Made by a program: the position numbers and the translations under genes. Of a stretch of DNA of 64,000 nt, positions 7,404 through 60,799 are shown piece after piece. The notes beneath the pieces are model-generated. The model was not told where the DNA came from and did no database searches. It saw only the letters and a program-made list of their open reading frames with translations. The DNA comes from Paracoccaceae bacterium (GTDB lineage Bacteria > Pseudomonadota > Alphaproteobacteria > Rhodobacterales > Rhodobacteraceae), in NCBI GenBank assembly GCA_014762635.1, contig JABURR010000061.1, forward strand, positions 1 to 64,000, read 5' to 3'. Each line of letters starts with the position of its first letter. Position 1 is the first letter of the stretch.

Positions 7404-8449
7404 GCGGAAACTCCGATATAGGTTCGGTCGTAGCGTGTGCCGAGGGATGTCAGGATCTCGTAGCCGATGGTGCCCGCGATATCGGCGATGTCATCCACGG
7501 TCTGCTGCTCGCAGAGCAGGTCGAGCGCCTCGGGAGCCTCGGACAGGTGCGTGACGTCGATGGTCAGCAGGTCCATCGAGACCCGTCCGGCCAGCGGGCA
7601 GGGAATGTCCCCGGCATAGAGCACCGCCTTGTTCGAGATCGCGCGCAGGATGCCATCGGCATAACCGCCCGAAACGGTGGCGATGCGCGCGGGTGCGTCG
7701 GTGGTCCAGCTGTTGCCGTAGCCCACCGTCTCGCCTGGGGTGAGGTCGCGCAGTTGGATCACCGGCAGGCTCAGCCGGACCACGGGGCGAGCCGCTTCGA
7801 AGGGCAGGCCGCCGTAGAGGCCGATGCCGGGCCGGGTCACCTCGAAATGATACTCGGCGCCCAGCAGCACGCCGCCCGTGGCGGCGATGGAGCGGGGAAC
7901 GGAAAGATCGCCCACCATCGCTTGGAAGGCGCGCAGTTGTTGGGCGTTCATCGGGTGGTCGGGATCGTCCGAGCAGGCGAGGTGGCTCATCACCAGAACC
8001 GGGCCCTTGGCGAGAACGCTGTCACGCAGGGCGGACCAGTCCGCCGCCTCTATGCCGAGGCGGTTCATGCCCGTGTCGAGCTGCATTCCGAAGGGATGGC
8101 CGGGCAGGGCTTCGAAATGCCGGGTGACCTGTTCGACCGAGTTCAGCATCGGGATGAGGTCATGGGCGCGGAGATGCTCGGCATCGCCCTCCATGTGGCC
8201 GGAATAGACGAAGACCTCGGGCCCGGGGCCAAGTGCCGCGCGGACGGAGGCGCCTTCTTCGGCCACGGCCACGAAGAACCGCCGCGCGCCCGCTCCGGCA
8301 AGCGCCCGCGCTACCCGCCCCGCATCGAGCCCGTAGCCATTAGCCTTGACCGTGGCGGCAGTCTCGACCGTGCTGGCCGACAGAGCGTCGAGCGCACGCC
8401 AGTTGGCCGCGAGCGCGTCAAGATCGATGGTGAGCGTGCCTGTTCCCAT
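7400..8449 (-). CDS. alr: Alanine racemase
   Basis: PLP enzyme that interconverts L- and D-alanine and supplies D-Ala for peptidoglycan. The 349-residue protein has the PLP-lysine motif TVKANGYG with Lys35, the TIM-barrel N-terminal domain, and the C-terminal beta domain containing the catalytic tyrosine in VGYGNSW and the [13 protein letters not shown] segment. First gene of the operon that runs to cvpA; the promoter must lie in 8450-8678, which it shares with the divergent uvrD gene. Confidence 0.95.
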
Positions 8450-27537: not shown

Positions 27538-28434
27538 CTAGTGGTCCGCATCTTGGCGTGCGGGGCGCCGTGTCGGCCAGACCTCCAACACGCCAGCACA
27601 CAAGACAAGCGCCCCGCCGAAGATCTCAACCCGGGTGAGAGTTTCCCCGGCCAGCATTGCGGCGGAAGCCGCGCCCACGAGGACCTCGGTCATCAGCAGG
27701 ATGCCGACCCGCGCGGGCTCCAGCCGCACGGCGGCCCACATGAGGCTGGCGACCGACAGTGCCCACCAGACGGTTCCGGTTGCAAGCGCAAGTCCGAGCG
27801 CGGCGAATGGATCGTCGGTTTCGGGAAGGGGGGCGAGACCCAGTGCCAGCACGAAGGAGACCGGCATCGCGCCGCAGGCGAAAACGAAGGCCGACTCCAG
27901 CGGGCCGAGGGTCGATCTGGCCCGGATACCCGTGGTGGAAAAGGACCAGAGCAGCCCGCCCCACAGCGCCAGCCACTCCCCCGTATTCCGGGGAATCGGA
28001 AGCTCCCCGTCGGCGGCCAGCATGGTCGCAAGCCCCGCAAGCCCGACGCCGATCGCAACGATCCTAAGCGGTGGGGTCGTCCAGCCCATCAGGTAGCGCG
28101 CGATCAGGGTGCTCCAGACCGGTGTCAGGAAATAGAGCAGGATCACGATCGCAACCCGCCCATAGACGAAACTCACCGAATAGAACGCGAAGGCGGCGCC
28201 GCCGAGGGCGATGGAAGCCAGCGCCACCGGGGAACATGTCAGAATATGACCCCGCCGCCAAAGCGCGACCGGTGTCAGCACCGCGACCGTCGCCATGGTG
28301 ATCGCGAAGGTTCCCCAAGCGCCGGGAAAGCCCATGCCGTCGAGCGCGCGGACGGGAATCCAGTAGAACCCCCATATGACGCCGGTCGCGATGACGATCG
28401 CGGTGGCGAACAGCGTGGTCCGATTGCGTTCCAT
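27538..28434 (-). CDS. EamA/DMT-family metabolite exporter
   Basis: A 298-residue protein with ten hydrophobic helices in two EamA repeats; it starts MERNRTTLFATAIVIATG and includes WGFYWIPVRALDGMGFPGAWG. Drug/metabolite transporters of this type export amino acids or other small molecules; no substrate is evident. Convergent with the APC permease (14 bases between stops). Confidence 0.82.
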   Translation of the reverse strand: MERNRTTLFATAIVIATGVIWGFYWIPVRALDGMGFPGAWGTFAITMATVAVLTPVALWRRGHILTCSPVALASIALGGAAFAFYSVSFVYGRVAIVILLYFLTPVWSTLIARYLMGWTTPPLRIVAIGVGLAGLATMLAADGELPIPRNTGEWLALWGGLLWSFSTTGIRARSTLGPLESAFVFACGAMPVSFVLALGLAPLPETDDPFAALGLALATGTVWWALSVASLMWAAVRLEPARVGILLMTEVLVGAASAAMLAGETLTRVEIFGGALVLCAGVLEVWPTRRPARQDADH

Positions 28435-28521
28435 GGGGAATGACTACGCAGTTCAAACGCTTTGCGCAAAGTATTCCGTGCCGTGCGCCTGCGATCCTCG
28501 CTTGCCGCGAAACATGCAACG

Positions 28522-28567
28522 AAATCCGATGAAAGTCCGATAGAATTCCGATGGTTTTCCGATAGCG
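28522..28567. repeat. 4 x 11-bp TCCGAT tandem repeat, intergenic copy
   Basis: TCCGAT begins at 28525, 28536, 28547 and 28558, exactly 11 bp apart, with partly conserved spacers and a final AGCG. About 40 of 47 positions match a second array at 58515-58561 inside apbE. Lies between the DMT exporter and ectR (146-bp gap). See the finding on this repeat. Confidence 0.75.
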
Positions 28568-28580
28568 GAGTCCGCCCCGG

Positions 28581-29072
28581 TCAGGCCGGGGTTTGCGGGT
28601 CGTGATTGGAGAAGTCTCCGGTGTCCAGAACCGGCGCGACCTGCAGTGAATCCGCGTCCAGCATCCCCGCCACGCGTTCCAGCACGGCGACGATCATCGA
28701 CTGTTCCCAATCGGGCAGGGACTCGAATTGCTTCACGTAGCGTTGTTGCAGCGGGTCCGGCGCGGTGTCCACGGCATGCTTGCCAGCTTCGGTCAGGACG
28801 ATGTCGGTCTTGCGCCGGTCGGTGGGCGAGGGGTGGCGTTCGACCATCCCTTTCGCGCCAAGACGGTCGATGAGCGAGGTCATCGTGGGCTGCGAGACGC
28901 CCATCCGTTTCGAGATATCCTTCGACGTCGCCGTGCCGGTTTCGGCCACGATCTGCAGCACCCTGATCTGCACCGCCGTCAGCCCTGCGGCCTTGGCCAG
29001 TTCGCGTCCGTAAAGCTCGGTTGCCCTGAGAATGCGCCGAATGGCGATGAGGCTCTGATCGGTCCTGTCCAT
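28581..29072 (-). CDS. ectR: MarR-type regulator of ectoine synthesis EctR
   Basis: A 163-residue winged-helix protein; the recognition region TSKDISKRMGVSQPTMTSLIDRL and wing KGMVERHPSPTDRRKTDIVLTEAG are typical of MarR. MarR regulators divergent from ectABC-ask are known as EctR, which represses the ectoine genes at low osmolarity in methylotrophs. The start ATG at 29072 has AGGA upstream and begins MDRTDQSLIAIRRILRA; a longer frame from 29243 would read through the operator region and is rejected. Two 19-bp palindromes in the divergent interval are likely operators. Confidence 0.88.
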   Translation of the reverse strand: MDRTDQSLIAIRRILRATELYGRELAKAAGLTAVQIRVLQIVAETGTATSKDISKRMGVSQPTMTSLIDRLGAKGMVERHPSPTDRRKTDIVLTEAGKHAVDTAPDPLQQRYVKQFESLPDWEQSMIVAVLERVAGMLDADSLQVAPVLDTGDFSNHDPQTPA

Positions 29073-56938: not shown

Positions 56939-57727
56939 ATGTACGCATTCGAGATCGACCGTCCGACCACCCTTGCCGCCGCCGTCGAGGCGATGGGGGC
57001 CGAGGAGGCACAGGCGCTGGGCGGGGGCCAGACCCTTATCCCGACGCTGAAACAGCGGCTGGCCAGCCCGGCCCGGCTGGTGAGCCTGGCAGGCATTGCC
57101 GAGCTTCAGGGCGTCTGCAAGGACGACGCGGGCCGTGTCTGCATTGGCAGCGCAACCACCCATGCCACCGTTGCCAAGGAAGCGGCGGGTGACTACCCGG
57201 CGCTGGCCGCGCTTGCGGGCGGCATCGGCGACCCGGCGGTGCGCAACCGTGGCACCATCGGCGGCAGCCTCGCCAACAACGACCCGGCGGCCTGCTACCC
57301 GTCGGCGGCGCTGGCCTCCGGCGCGACCATTGTCACCAACACCCGCGAAATCGCGGCGGATGACTTCTTTGATGGCATGTTCACCACCGCGCTCGAAGAA
57401 GGTGAAATCATCACCGAGGTGAAGTTCCCGGTGCCGGAAAAGGCGAACTACCAGAAGTTCGAACAGCCGGCCTCACGCTTTGCCCTGACCGGTGTCTTCG
57501 TGGCGAAATACGCCGATGGCGTGCGCGTCGCGGTGACCGGCGCGTCCGAGGATGGCGTGTTCCGCTGGACCGAGGCCGAGGAAGCGCTGAGCGCCAACTT
57601 CTCGCCCGACGCGGTGGCCGGTCTTTCGGTCAGTGCCGATGACATGATCGCCGACCTGCACGGTACGAAGGAGTACCGCGCACACCTGGTGAACGTCCTG
57701 ACCCGCCGCGCTGTCGCCGCGGCCTGA
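56939..57727 (+). CDS. coxM: Molybdenum hydroxylase FAD subunit (CoxM type)
   Basis: A 262-residue FAD-binding protein: flavin motifs ALGGGQTLIPTLKQRL and TIGGSLANNDPAACYP and a CO_deh_flav_C-type C-terminus. It passes electrons from CoxS to a quinone or cytochrome acceptor. AAGGAAGGAAAA ribosome site. 110 bases after coxL; two hairpins follow. Confidence 0.93.
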   Translation: MYAFEIDRPTTLAAAVEAMGAEEAQALGGGQTLIPTLKQRLASPARLVSLAGIAELQGVCKDDAGRVCIGSATTHATVAKEAAGDYPALAALAGGIGDPAVRNRGTIGGSLANNDPAACYPSAALASGATIVTNTREIAADDFFDGMFTTALEEGEIITEVKFPVPEKANYQKFEQPASRFALTGVFVAKYADGVRVAVTGASEDGVFRWTEAEEALSANFSPDAVAGLSVSADDMIADLHGTKEYRAHLVNVLTRRAVAAA

Positions 57728-57741
57728 CGATCAACGAGATC

Positions 57742-57818
57742 CTCCGGCCGTGCGTGACGCGGCCGGAGATACATACGCCCCTCGCTGACCTCCCAGCGCG
57801 AGGGGCGTTTCTTTTTCA
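57742..57818. terminator. Tandem hairpins between coxM and apbE
   Basis: First stem CTCCGGCCG/CGGCCGGAG (57742-57768). Second stem ACGCCCCTCGC (57775-57785) / GCGAGGGGCGT (57798-57808) followed by TTCTTTTTC, a good terminator for the cox genes. Its loop contains CCTCCC. The apbE stop codon lies within the T-rich tail, so it may also serve apbE. Confidence 0.8.
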
Positions 57819-58709
57819 GGTCTGCATCGTCGACAGGTTGCCCTCGGGGTCGACCAACGTGACCCGTGAAACTTCCGGAACCTCCGGCAGGACGCGTTCG
57901 ATCTGGTCGCGGGTCATCAGGCAGAAAGCAGTCGAAAGACCGTCCGCGATGGCCGCGCTCGTCGCTGTGACGCTGACGGTGGACCATTCCGGGCGGGTGG
58001 TGCCGCGTCGCGGGTCGAGGATGTGGCCGGACCCGCCGGTCAGGGTCATGGCGAAAGGGCTCGAGGTAGCGACGGCCCCGCCGGTCACGCTCTGCCAGCC
58101 CAGAAGCCCATGCTCCGGATCCGCGACCCCCAGCCGGAAGGGCCCGCCCAACGCGTGAAATTCTCCGATATTGACCAGCGCCTGACCGAACCCGGCGCGG
58201 GCAAGGTTCTGCGCGGCGATATCGGTGGCGTAGCCCTGGGCGATTCCGTTGAGCGTCAGCGCCTGGCCCGGGCCGATCCGTAGACCGGGAGAGAGCGAAA
58301 CCCGGTGCCAGCCGACCCGGCGCAACGCGCCTTCGCTGCTCTTGCCGGTGGCCATGGCCTGCCAAAGCGGTTGCACCGTCGGGTCAAAGCGCCCGCCGGT
58401 CACCCGGTGCAGCCGGTCCGAAAGATCGATAAGGGCGCGCATGTGCGGGGAGGGGGCGGCGAGTTCTCCGGTGTGGTTCAGCCGGCTGATCGCGGAATCC
58501 GGATCGAAGAGGGAAAAGTCCGATGAAATTCCGATAATATTCCGATGGAATTCCGATAGCGCTTTCCGGGCCTCCTCGGCCGGTCCGTAGAGGGTGATCT
58601 CGGCCTCGGCACCAAGGGCCTGACCGCGCCATCTGAGCGGCGTGGCCAGTGCCGCGGAGGGCACGCCAAGCGCTGCGGCGGTCAGGGTCAGGAAACGGCG
58701 GCGTTTCAT
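57816..58709 (-). CDS. apbE: FAD:protein FMN transferase ApbE
   Basis: Attaches FMN covalently to threonines of exported proteins. The 297-residue precursor has a twin-arginine signal (MKRRRFLTLTAAALG), then the ApbE core: HRVTGGRFDPTVQPLW, GIAQGYATDIAAQNL and AIADGLSTAFCLM. Residues about 52-64 (SEFHRNIIGISSD) are encoded by a 4 x 11-bp repeat identical in type to the one at 28522. ATG 58709 overlaps the NosR-like stop as ATGA, so the two are coupled and this ApbE probably modifies that protein. Confidence 0.9.
   Translation of the reverse strand: MKRRRFLTLTAAALGVPSAALATPLRWRGQALGAEAEITLYGPAEEARKALSEFHRNIIGISSDFSLFDPDSAISRLNHTGELAAPSPHMRALIDLSDRLHRVTGGRFDPTVQPLWQAMATGKSSEGALRRVGWHRVSLSPGLRIGPGQALTLNGIAQGYATDIAAQNLARAGFGQALVNIGEFHALGGPFRLGVADPEHGLLGWQSVTGGAVATSSPFAMTLTGGSGHILDPRRGTTRPEWSTVSVTATSAAIADGLSTAFCLMTRDQIERVLPEVPEVSRVTLVDPEGNLSTMQT
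58515..58561. repeat. 4 x 11-bp TCCGAT tandem repeat, copy inside apbE
   Basis: TCCGAT begins at 58519, 58530, 58541 and 58552, period 11 bp, followed by AGCG; matches 28522-28567 at about 40 of 47 positions. It is read in frame in apbE and replaces a helix segment of normal length. Confidence 0.75.
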
Positions 58710-60799
58710 TTGATCGGGGCCTCTCGTTTCGGGCGCCGTCCGGCAAGGACCAACGGCACGCAGCGTTGCGGATCCTCGTAGATCGATACGCAGCCAAGAC
58801 ATTGAAAACACTCGATGTAATCGATCTTTCCGTCACGCTCGATCGCGCCGTAGCGGCATTTCACCCGGCAAAGCTGGCAAGGCGATCCGCACTCCGCGCG
58901 CCGCTCGATCCAGTCCCGCCCACGCAGCAGCCCGCCGATGGCCATGACCGCGCCCAGGGGGCAGACATAGCGGCAGAACCCTTTGAAAAGGCTCATTCCC
59001 AGCACCAGCCAGAAGACCGCATAAAGCACATAGTACCATTCCCGCACGAAAAAGACGGTGATCGCGGTCTTGAAAGGCTCGATTTCGACCGCGGTATCGA
59101 TGTGCTGCGGCGCGATGAAAACCGTTGCGACGAGGCCTGCGAGAAGGACGTATTTCAACGTTTTCAGTCGCTTGTCCCATGCCGCCGATGGGGTGATCTG
59201 CGGTACGCGTAGGCCGCGGCCAATGTGATGCGCGAATTCCTGAAGGGCGCCGAAGGGGCACAGCCATCCGCAGAACAACCCGCGGCCCCAGAGGACAAAT
59301 CCGACGATCGTGACGGCCCAGATCAGTAAGGAAAACGGATCGTAGATCAGGAAGGCAAAGCTCCCGCCGCTCAGGGCCGTGCGCACCACGCCCAACACCG
59401 TGGCGATGGAAAGCTGGCCCTGTCCCCACCAGCCGATGAACACTGTCACGAAGGCAAGAATGACAAGGCGCATCGGCGTGAAAAGGCGGTGCCGGGCGAA
59501 GCCCTTCATGCCGGGCCCGAGGGCGAGCAGCAGCGGCACGAGGAACAGCCCGGCGACGATCATGTCCACCTGCCGGTTGCGCAGCGCTTCGAGCCATGGG
59601 GGCGCGATGTCCTGTGCCTTGTTTTGCAGGAAGAACCGTTCCGGCGTCACGTGCGTGACGGACAGGGTTTTCGTGCCGATCTCGGGGCGGAATGACCCGT
59701 GTTCGCGCACGGCGAGGACATTCAACTGCCACTCCCGCGCGGGATCGAACCCCAGCCGACGGTCCGTGCGCAGGATCATCGCGGTGCCCTCGGGCACGCC
59801 TCTAGCCAGTTCCACATACAGGTCGGAATCACGCAGCGGCACCGGCAAACCGTCCTGCTCGGCCGAAAGCCAGTCCGGCGAGGTATTGCGCACGAAGTCC
59901 GGCGAAACCAACCCGTGCCGACCGGCTTCGATCACCAGGATCGGTTCGTCGAAATCCGCGATGCTCATGAACCCCTGCAAGTCTTCGAACCCGTCGGGGG
60001 AAAGCACGGCACGGGCAATCGCGGGCGGACCGATATCCACGACCCAAAGGTCCAGGTAAATCCCGTCGGGGTTCGCGCTGGCCTCGGGGTCGTCATGCGC
60101 CCAGAGCGTTCCGGCGAAGGCCGCGTCGATCTCGGCATTGGTCACGGTCCTGCGCGTGACCAACCCTTGGTCCACGAGGTCGACCCAAGTCAGGTTCTCC
60201 TGGTGATCGGGGTCCGGGCGCCGAGGGGCGGCGGCAACCAGACCCTGCATCTTTTCGCGCGCGACCGCGCGGGTTGCGGCAAGCAGGCTTTCATGGGCGA
60301 TGCGGACACTGGCCGTCGCCTTGGTCACACCATCGAGGTAGACCAGTGCCGACCCGTCATCCGCAGCGCCATAGGGGGTTCCCACGACGAGCGATTGAGA
60401 TATCGAAAGCCCATGATATTGCTTGAAAAACTCTCGGAACGGCGCCTCGCCCAATCCGGAGACGAAGATCGGTTCGTTATGGGAAATCAGCCGAACCTCC
60501 AGGAAACGACCTTCAAGGTCGAGCATGACGAACAGGTTGATCGGTGCACCGGCGAATCCGGGCAGGGGGGCCATGGGCTCGGTTTCGAACGCATAGCCCA
60601 CCTGCGTGCCACCGGAGTTCAGAAGGCCCCAGACCCCCTTGTCGTTCTGGGCGTCGCCAAGGATGAAGGGCGGGGCAACGAATGCTTCCATCTCGGAGCG
60701 GGAGAGCGGAGACTCCGCCTCCGCGCGGCTTGGCACAGGGCCAGTCACAAGCGCGAGGGCGAGCCCCGCCAAACAGATCAATCGCCAGATCGAGACCAT
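58706..60799 (-). CDS. NosR/NirI-like flavin- and iron-sulfur membrane protein
   Basis: A 697-residue protein with an N-terminal signal peptide and periplasmic FMN-binding domain (about 30-180; candidate FMN attachment Thr162 in LDGVTKATAS, a variant of the usual S/T-G-A-T motif), a second periplasmic domain, five to six membrane helices, two CxxxCP membrane-edge motifs (CGWLCPFGALQEF and CRYVCPLGAVMAI) and a cytoplasmic pair of [4Fe-4S] clusters near residues 637-680 (CGSPCQLCRVKC, CFQCLGC). Layout equals NosR, which moves electrons across the membrane, yet no nosZ or other denitrification gene is in the window. ApbE is encoded downstream with ATGA overlap. Confidence 0.88.
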   Translation of the reverse strand: MVSIWRLICLAGLALALVTGPVPSRAEAESPLSRSEMEAFVAPPFILGDAQNDKGVWGLLNSGGTQVGYAFETEPMAPLPGFAGAPINLFVMLDLEGRFLEVRLISHNEPIFVSGLGEAPFREFFKQYHGLSISQSLVVGTPYGAADDGSALVYLDGVTKATASVRIAHESLLAATRAVAREKMQGLVAAAPRRPDPDHQENLTWVDLVDQGLVTRRTVTNAEIDAAFAGTLWAHDDPEASANPDGIYLDLWVVDIGPPAIARAVLSPDGFEDLQGFMSIADFDEPILVIEAGRHGLVSPDFVRNTSPDWLSAEQDGLPVPLRDSDLYVELARGVPEGTAMILRTDRRLGFDPAREWQLNVLAVREHGSFRPEIGTKTLSVTHVTPERFFLQNKAQDIAPPWLEALRNRQVDMIVAGLFLVPLLLALGPGMKGFARHRLFTPMRLVILAFVTVFIGWWGQGQLSIATVLGVVRTALSGGSFAFLIYDPFSLLIWAVTIVGFVLWGRGLFCGWLCPFGALQEFAHHIGRGLRVPQITPSAAWDKRLKTLKYVLLAGLVATVFIAPQHIDTAVEIEPFKTAITVFFVREWYYVLYAVFWLVLGMSLFKGFCRYVCPLGAVMAIGGLLRGRDWIERRAECGSPCQLCRVKCRYGAIERDGKIDYIECFQCLGCVSIYEDPQRCVPLVLAGRRPKREAPIK

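Follow-up and report, generated by a model that had tools for sequence, protein, structure and literature searches.

Two arrays of 11-bp units built around the hexamer TCCGAT, found in a 64,000-nucleotide stretch of DNA (hereinafter, the window), belong to a set of at least 55 such arrays in the same genome (G000), and arrays of the same geometry occupy matching positions in genomes of other genera. In comparisons across these genomes, the arrays look like old, fixed addresses at which the motif has been rewritten in place and not like recent insertions. We consider it probable, if by a small measure, that they are maintained platforms for a putative oligomeric, sequence-specific DNA-binding protein with a non-promoter role in the chromosome.

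Table 1. Arrays and adjacent genes in the window (T dialect: T before the CCGAY core)
Feature	Coordinates	Strand	Details
Array 1	28520..28567	+	4 x 11-bp units, T dialect; TCCGATGAAAG TCCGATAGAAT TCCGATGGTTT TCCGAT
Array 2	58514..58561	+	4 x 11-bp units, T dialect, antisense within apbE; TCCGATGAAAT TCCGATAATAT TCCGATGGAAT TCCGAT
EamA-type transporter gene	27538..28434	-	left of array 1; NCBIfam match below cut-off
MarR-family regulator gene	28581..29072	-	start codon uncertain; longer reading from 29243
apbE (FAD:protein FMN transferase family)	57816..58709	-	contains array 2; Pfam ApbE

The TCCGAT hexamers start at positions 28525, 28536, 28547 and 28558 in array 1 (spanning 28525-28563) and at 58519, 58530, 58541 and 58552 in array 2 (spanning 58519-58557), all on the plus strand. 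The two arrays are identical in 40 of 48 aligned bases, in agreement with the preliminary description of this DNA (about 40 of 47), and the exact 11-bp period given there is borne out by a motif-free scan of the window for any 6-mer with four occurrences at one constant spacing of 7 to 17 bases, which returned only period 11 and only these two arrays. The same two places, again with period 11, were recovered with 5-mers (four occurrences, at least three different letters, periods 7-23). According to the gene ends predicted by our own simple gene caller, array 1 lies 13 bp beyond the MarR-family stop codon and ahead of the EamA-type gene, whose start is 85 bp away.

The genome of the window (3.55 Mb in 98 contigs, 95.93% complete) contains 71 exact matches to a three-unit TCCGAT pattern and at least 122 matches when T may be read as Y and as many as two mismatches are allowed; the reversed-pattern control yielded 0 matches. 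At least 55 arrays were identified and extracted with their flanks, including L194, a weak match within a dnaG-type gene that may be due to chance, and one more array, in valS, was found later. The sequence is therefore dispersed, as had been proposed, in many copies that extend well beyond the two in the window. Exactly four units are present in 46 of the 55 arrays, three units in 6 and five in 2, and the counting rule assigns no unit to one array. Across the 273,533 bases fetched from G000, pairs of TCCGAT are separated by 11 bp in 125 cases, by 16 bp in one case and by 7-10, 12-15 or 17 bp in none; lone TCCGAY hexamers are not enriched in the fetched DNA (260 compared to about 285 expected). 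The spacers are A/T-rich and differ between units, and the array is frequently followed by a tail similar to GGATTTTCGGG. The predominance of four units together with the differences between spacers rules out a simple tandem repeat generated by slippage; the array is a quantised site.

Beyond G000, 394 genomes, one per genus and taken from a larger group, were searched. Of 61 genomes, only G000 itself had the TCCGAT form. The TCCGAY form was found in 10 of 394, and exact matches to four CCGAY-N6 units in 39 of the 394 genera, 16 of which have 10 to 111 matches (five-unit arrays being counted twice): G305 (111), G351 (67), G166 (54), G088 (51), G000 (49), G035 (47), G265 (46), G317 (44), G417 (32), G240 (25), G175 (20), G194 (20), G143 (17), G292 (12), G203 (11) and G284 (10). 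Unrelated taxa that appeared in the genome scan with other spacers (Streptomyces, Bacteroidales, Lachnospiraceae and others) were excluded from the counts. The reversed control gave 0 matches in each of these 16 genera; elsewhere, it matched in G234 (33), G023 (2) and G308 (1) with the general form and in G156 (1) and G316 (1) in the TCCGAY-form search. By eye, the general-form matches in G156 and G375 look like simple tandem repeats of identical units. Named carriers among the matches listed are Rhodovulum tesquicola (5 loci) and the metagenome-assembled genomes Rhodobacteraceae HKST-UBA101 (5) and Paracoccaceae MO_188.B57 (1). Judging by these carriers and by the ApbE matches, the window probably comes from Rhodobacteraceae in the broad sense. 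In line with the preliminary description, no account of the arrays was found in the open-licence papers searched, and six motif strings occur in none of them.

In most genera, the base that precedes CCGAY is nearly fixed among the sampled arrays, resulting in dialects: T in G000 (91%) and G194 (100%), G in G166 (96%), A in G417, G292 and G418 (92-100%), and a mixture in G351 and G203. G351 and G418 belong to one genus and differ in dialect, with a few A-type arrays retained in G351. Two arrays of G351 located about 5.9 kb apart on contig C2 (L338 and L339) have nearly identical flanks with a few base differences and apparently originate from a recent local duplication. Cores of the form RCCGAC are known for AP2-type domains in plants, and a link to such domains would be conceivable.

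The core itself is replaced in two genomes. In 400 kb of G234, four exact arrays with four occurrences of the 5-mer CAGCC were detected, every one of them with period 11 out of the 17 periods scanned, and a scan for three occurrences of a 6-mer gave 5 arrays at period 11 and 1 at period 21; the spacers and tail of the CAGCC arrays are similar to those of the CCGAY arrays. Including degenerate ones, this sample contains 8 arrays, 6 of which have the stop codon of a gene on the other strand no more than 20 bp from their end. A third core, GAGTTAYGRAA (ATAACTC on the other strand), forms two period-11 arrays in 400 kb of G001, the sister of G234 on the cimA tree (support 100/98), where the scan for three occurrences of a 6-mer gave these 2 hits at period 11 and 1 each at periods 9, 12 and 18. 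Thus, the geometry is kept while the core is not. Given that 355 of the 394 genera have no exact match to four CCGAY units and that no period-11 array of any core was detected in 400 kb of G003, the system is not general.

For the comparison of addresses, 191 arrays from 18 genomes were used (55 from G000, 31 from G351, 21 from G194 and up to 10 from each of the others), and neighboring proteins were matched at 55% identity over 60% of the shorter protein, with both arrays within 200 bp. Among the 51 cross-genus neighbor pairs obtained, 47 are concordant in both gene end and array orientation; three of the discordant pairs differ in both, and one has the same end and the opposite orientation. 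The concordant pairs, which are not independent within a site, represent 13 sites, two of which are based on a 44-residue match or on a cold-shock-type protein that may be multicopy, and 23 of the 47 connect different dialects. The neighbors include citramalate synthase, lipoamide dehydrogenase, chorismate mutase, EF-P, the glutamate synthase small subunit and a LivG-type ATPase (assigned below the curated cut-off). In the gap upstream of cimA, which follows cysS as judged by eye, an array is present in 5 of 30 genomes in the T, mixed, G and A dialects and always in one orientation; G000 and G166, which the cimA tree pairs as sisters with moderate support (89/87), carry different dialects there. 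On this tree, based on a single gene and weakly resolved, the dialects are scattered, requiring 16 changes compared to a shuffled mean of 18.4, with values as low in 12 of 200 shuffles. Most of the sampled arrays of G194 and G351 are not matched by any G000 array, which shows that arrays are gained and lost as well.

The array inside valS is located in a loop that was readable for 28 of 30 genomes; six of these 28 have CCGAY arrays (G000, G194, G386, G088 with three units, G417 and G175), and G157 appears by eye to contain a relic. The period-11 score reached the lowest possible p value (0.002, 500 shuffles) in eight loops, namely those of the six carriers, G001 and, with a weaker score, G010, followed by G265 (p = 0.010), G157 (p = 0.018) and G305 (p = 0.040). 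The units occupy codon phases 1, 0, 2, 1 in five of the six CCGAY carriers, 0, 2, 1 in G088, and again 1, 0, 2, 1 in G001, which has the GAGTTAYGRAA core in valS as well and unit offsets equal to those of G417 and G175; codon phase is shared by all seven carriers checked. The motif is read in all three frames and the resulting peptides differ by dialect, which argues for selection on the DNA, and the sharing of one phase by different cores argues for a single ancestral site at which the core was changed in place. Given that the loop varies in length in array-free genomes too, valS alone cannot decide between insertion and rewriting. The loop of G010 (L470) gives a weak signal at period 11 and may contain another core, CTACRGAA; this is the sole hint of an array in that genus.

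Array 2 covers approximately residues 50-66 of the 297-residue ApbE reading that starts at 58709, so its location within the gene is as previously proposed and its extent slightly greater than the residues 52-64 given then. Across the array, ApbE aligns without gaps to two array-free ApbE proteins encoded on Sulfitobacter and Pseudosulfitobacter plasmids (54% identity), so no length has been added, as the preliminary description held, and both of these proteins differ from the sequence encoded by the array. As far as this alignment goes, apbE supports rewriting in place over insertion. By eye, apbE is flanked by genes for a 4Fe-4S-type membrane protein and a xanthine dehydrogenase FAD subunit-like protein (window positions 56939-60799), in the same order as on a Pseudosulfitobacter plasmid.

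Taken across genera and dialects, the constancy of gene end and orientation, together with the common phase in valS, points to old sites with the sequence rewritten in place. Recent spread, and the gene conversion between copies that had been suggested, are not supported, given the 47 concordant pairs, the 23 of them that cross dialects and the single codon phase in valS; conversion of short tracts between unrelated flanks would be a separate case.

Apart from the 18 arrays inside genes and 20 that lack a neighbor, 153 of the 191 arrays are intergenic with both neighbors present. Convergent gaps contain 38 of these 153, compared to 24 of 221 background gaps, and divergent gaps 16, compared to 45 of 221, the background being gaps of at least 60 bp in a 400-kb sample of G351 only, delineated with our gene caller. 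For downstream genes encoded on the opposite strand, the array and the stop codon are no more than 40 bp apart in 48 of 84 cases; in G351 this holds for only 4 of 20, most of the others being at 60-130 bp. The convergent enrichment, the divergent depletion and the presence of arrays inside genes argue against promoter control as a rule.

In a subset of genomes, the arrays are accompanied by further motifs. Of the 17 GTTAAC sites in the fetched DNA of G000, 16 are within 85 bp of an array center, and in G351, 24 of the 29 copies of this hexamer in array-centered loci have an array no more than 200 bp away, compared to 1 of 25 in evenly spaced samples totaling 400 kb. A module with fixed spacing surrounds 16 of 21 arrays in G351: TGTTAACCA precedes the first unit by about 22 bp, and TTAAC and GATTCG follow the last one at about 27 and 36 bp, respectively. 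Over about 150 bp, only the motif positions are conserved and not the whole segments. Just 2 of 41 GTTAAC sites are near arrays in G234, so the module is not universal. The forms TTAACCAT and TTAA are given for CtrA sites in the cited account (PMC6180460). Many of the copies in G000 and G351 belong to a module of fixed spacing with GTTAAC and often GATTC; these motifs resemble CtrA half sites, and there may be a link to cell-cycle regulation in these genomes, in which case CtrA would be predicted to bind at the module sites. The window itself (positions 1-64000) contains no GTTAAC, compared to 6.5 expected from its composition. When seven stretches of G000 were folded as RNA, two yielded stems stronger than shuffled sequences (L208, z = -3.9; L226, z = -2.2), and the other five, which include both window arrays on both strands and L195, folded no better than shuffles. 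L208 and L226 are both of the GTTAAC type. In each, the right flank carries an inverted repeat of units 3 and 4, with which the array can pair to form a hairpin (L208:1950-2060, minus strand; L226:1985-2090, plus strand). These stems weigh slightly against the platform explanation.

The strict helical period, the prevalence of four units, the constraint at the DNA level and the fixed addresses are consistent with a platform that binds a protein oligomer. A protein that reads the arrays would place one subunit on each 11 bp, along the same face of the helix and normally four in all; its specificity would shift between genera, with the sites following in place, and its role would be chromosomal, in nucleoid organization or in marking DNA for exchange, rather than in the control of promoters. 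A broader and more tentative proposal, which we hold possible while leaning against it, is that the arrays of Rhodobacteraceae make up a lock-and-key code in which a putative protein with fast-changing DNA specificity is matched by tens to about a hundred address-fixed four-unit arrays rewritten genus by genus, across cores that comprise CCGAY preceded by T, G, A or C, CAGCC and ATAACTC, even inside valS. Replacement of the core with address, orientation and geometry kept is hard to reconcile with the ordinary evolution of regulators, since it requires concerted change at many sites. If true, such a code would be the bacterial equivalent of centromere drive or of PRDM9-like turnover, serving chromosome organization or species-specific DNA exchange. 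If one factor reads the arrays, the related genera hold a natural series of matched protein and site variants, which would let protein-DNA co-evolution, and possibly a new chromosome-organizing or DNA-exchange system, be tested directly.

Among the alternatives, a short mobile repeat (REP/REPIN, BOX or RPE-like) mobilized by a putative transposase, with the dialects as successive subfamilies and the addresses as insertion hot spots, fares best and is still unlikely. Familiar elements of this kind, REP/REPIN and the Rickettsia palindromic elements, are palindromic, inserted sequences that are dispersed and either extragenic or in frame within genes. The arrays are similar to them in dispersal and placement, and several features would suit mobility: subfamilies specific to genera, two dialects in one genome (G351), the preference for gene ends, the inverted repeat at the right end in a subset, and three copies on contig C12 of G000 (L225, L226 and L227) with the same unusual second unit, CCCGAT, of which L225 and L226 also share long flanks on both sides, so that a longer segment was duplicated at least once. 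The arrays differ from these elements in consisting of direct repeats, with an inverted repeat in the subset only, and in adding no length at the one site tested, apbE; the lack of added length and the shared orientation argue against recent insertion. The single valS phase and the conservation of the G351 module at motif positions only are likewise at odds with mobility. Among the 55 genes nearest to the G000 arrays, the commonest Pfam family is ABC_tran (3), and no transposase is found in the best 50 Pfam family rows, another 64 single-member families lying outside this set. One full-length element of G351 had no match in 72,556 plasmid records. In viruses, the 33 stretches with the TCCGAT pattern are, by eye, miscellaneous repeats, many with identical units, and the general pattern occurs in at least 120 stretches, of which 118 were viewed and appeared to be miscellaneous repeats with the exception of L588. 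This IMG/VR contig carries an A-type array (7481-7518) at a distance of 9 bp from where an acyl-CoA dehydrogenase-like gene ends, amid genes that look bacterial by eye, the others being autoinducer synthase-like and LuxR-like.

Somewhat less probable than mobility is a signal for DNA uptake or exchange, similar to DUS or USS and kept by biased recombination, with the dialects as uptake specificities. The turnover of genus dialects at shared addresses, the tolerance of arrays in protein loops and at gene ends and the lack of a common theme among the functions of nearby genes would all suit this explanation. The DUS of Neisseriaceae (PMC3630211) and USS of Pasteurellaceae (PMC1626085), as described in these sources, are also dispersed short sites with lineage dialects, and the DUS dialects share a core and differ in other letters (PMC3630211). 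Lineage-specific dialects are found in the arrays too, but DUS and USS consist of very many single sites, with thousands of DUS copies per genome (PMC3630211), whereas the arrays number tens to about a hundred (at most 111 four-unit matches per genome) and mostly contain four units, and their core is wholly replaceable, having been swapped in G234 and G001. The low copy number and the lack of enrichment of single units argue against a classical uptake sequence.

Lower still we rank operators of an OmpR/PhoB-type response regulator that binds direct repeats about one helical turn apart, a spacing that the arrays share. The full sites of CtrA are TTAA-N7-TTAA (PMC6180460), and those of CenR in Rhodobacter are TGA-N8-TGA (PMC9275681), a period of 11 by our count and of 10 bp according to the paper; the 40 codirectional-antisense arrays upstream of start codons, at a median of 140 bp, would be suitably placed for such a regulator. 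As the cited accounts describe them, the sites of CtrA and CenR, both of the OmpR family, have two half sites and are located at promoters (three half sites are mentioned there for ArcA), whereas the arrays mostly have four units, a changing core and a location that is not, as a rule, in promoters, given the 38 of 153 in convergent gaps and the 18 of 191 inside genes. Many sets of intergenic direct repeats, some at matching positions between strains, have also been described in Beggiatoaceae (PMC4679880); these TAACTGA repeats differ, in that account, in that the sets consist of heptamers, vary in copy number and mostly immediately precede start codons, with one heptamer found across phyla. 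An RNA element (a terminator, a stabilizer or a protein site on mRNA) is highly improbable, despite the close opposite-strand stop codons and the stems of L208 and L226, because conserved sites occur both in the sense orientation (before lpdA and cimA) and in antisense (beside the LivG-type gene), which argues against a general RNA role, five of the seven folded stretches are no better than shuffles, and the Rfam matches are only tRNAs (6 loci).

Returning to the arrays as chromosomal platforms, their orientation was analyzed along contigs. The best split into two domains gave permutation p values of 0.07 for contig C2 and 0.31 for contig C1 of G351, 0.02 for G292 and 0.41 for G035. A polarity related to replication (KOPS, Ter or Chi type), suggested by the runs in G292 and G351, was not established, given the value of 0.07 in G351 and the absence of a tendency in G000, where pairs of arrays within contigs are alike in orientation in 26 cases and unlike in 24. 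Runs of one orientation are longer than expected by chance only in G035 (contig C1, p = 0.005), and two replication arms do not explain them; the arms of G351 C2, as defined by GC skew, hold 14 plus and 9 minus arrays and 9 plus and 14 minus arrays, respectively. Among the matches listed, arrays that contain CCGAT at an 11-bp period, with other spacers and unit numbers, are also seen in other phyla, on more than one contig each, in Paludibacteraceae (L032, L103, L058, L068), Dorea (L033, L111), Lachnospiraceae (L052, L116) and Magnetococcales (L059, L071, L113).
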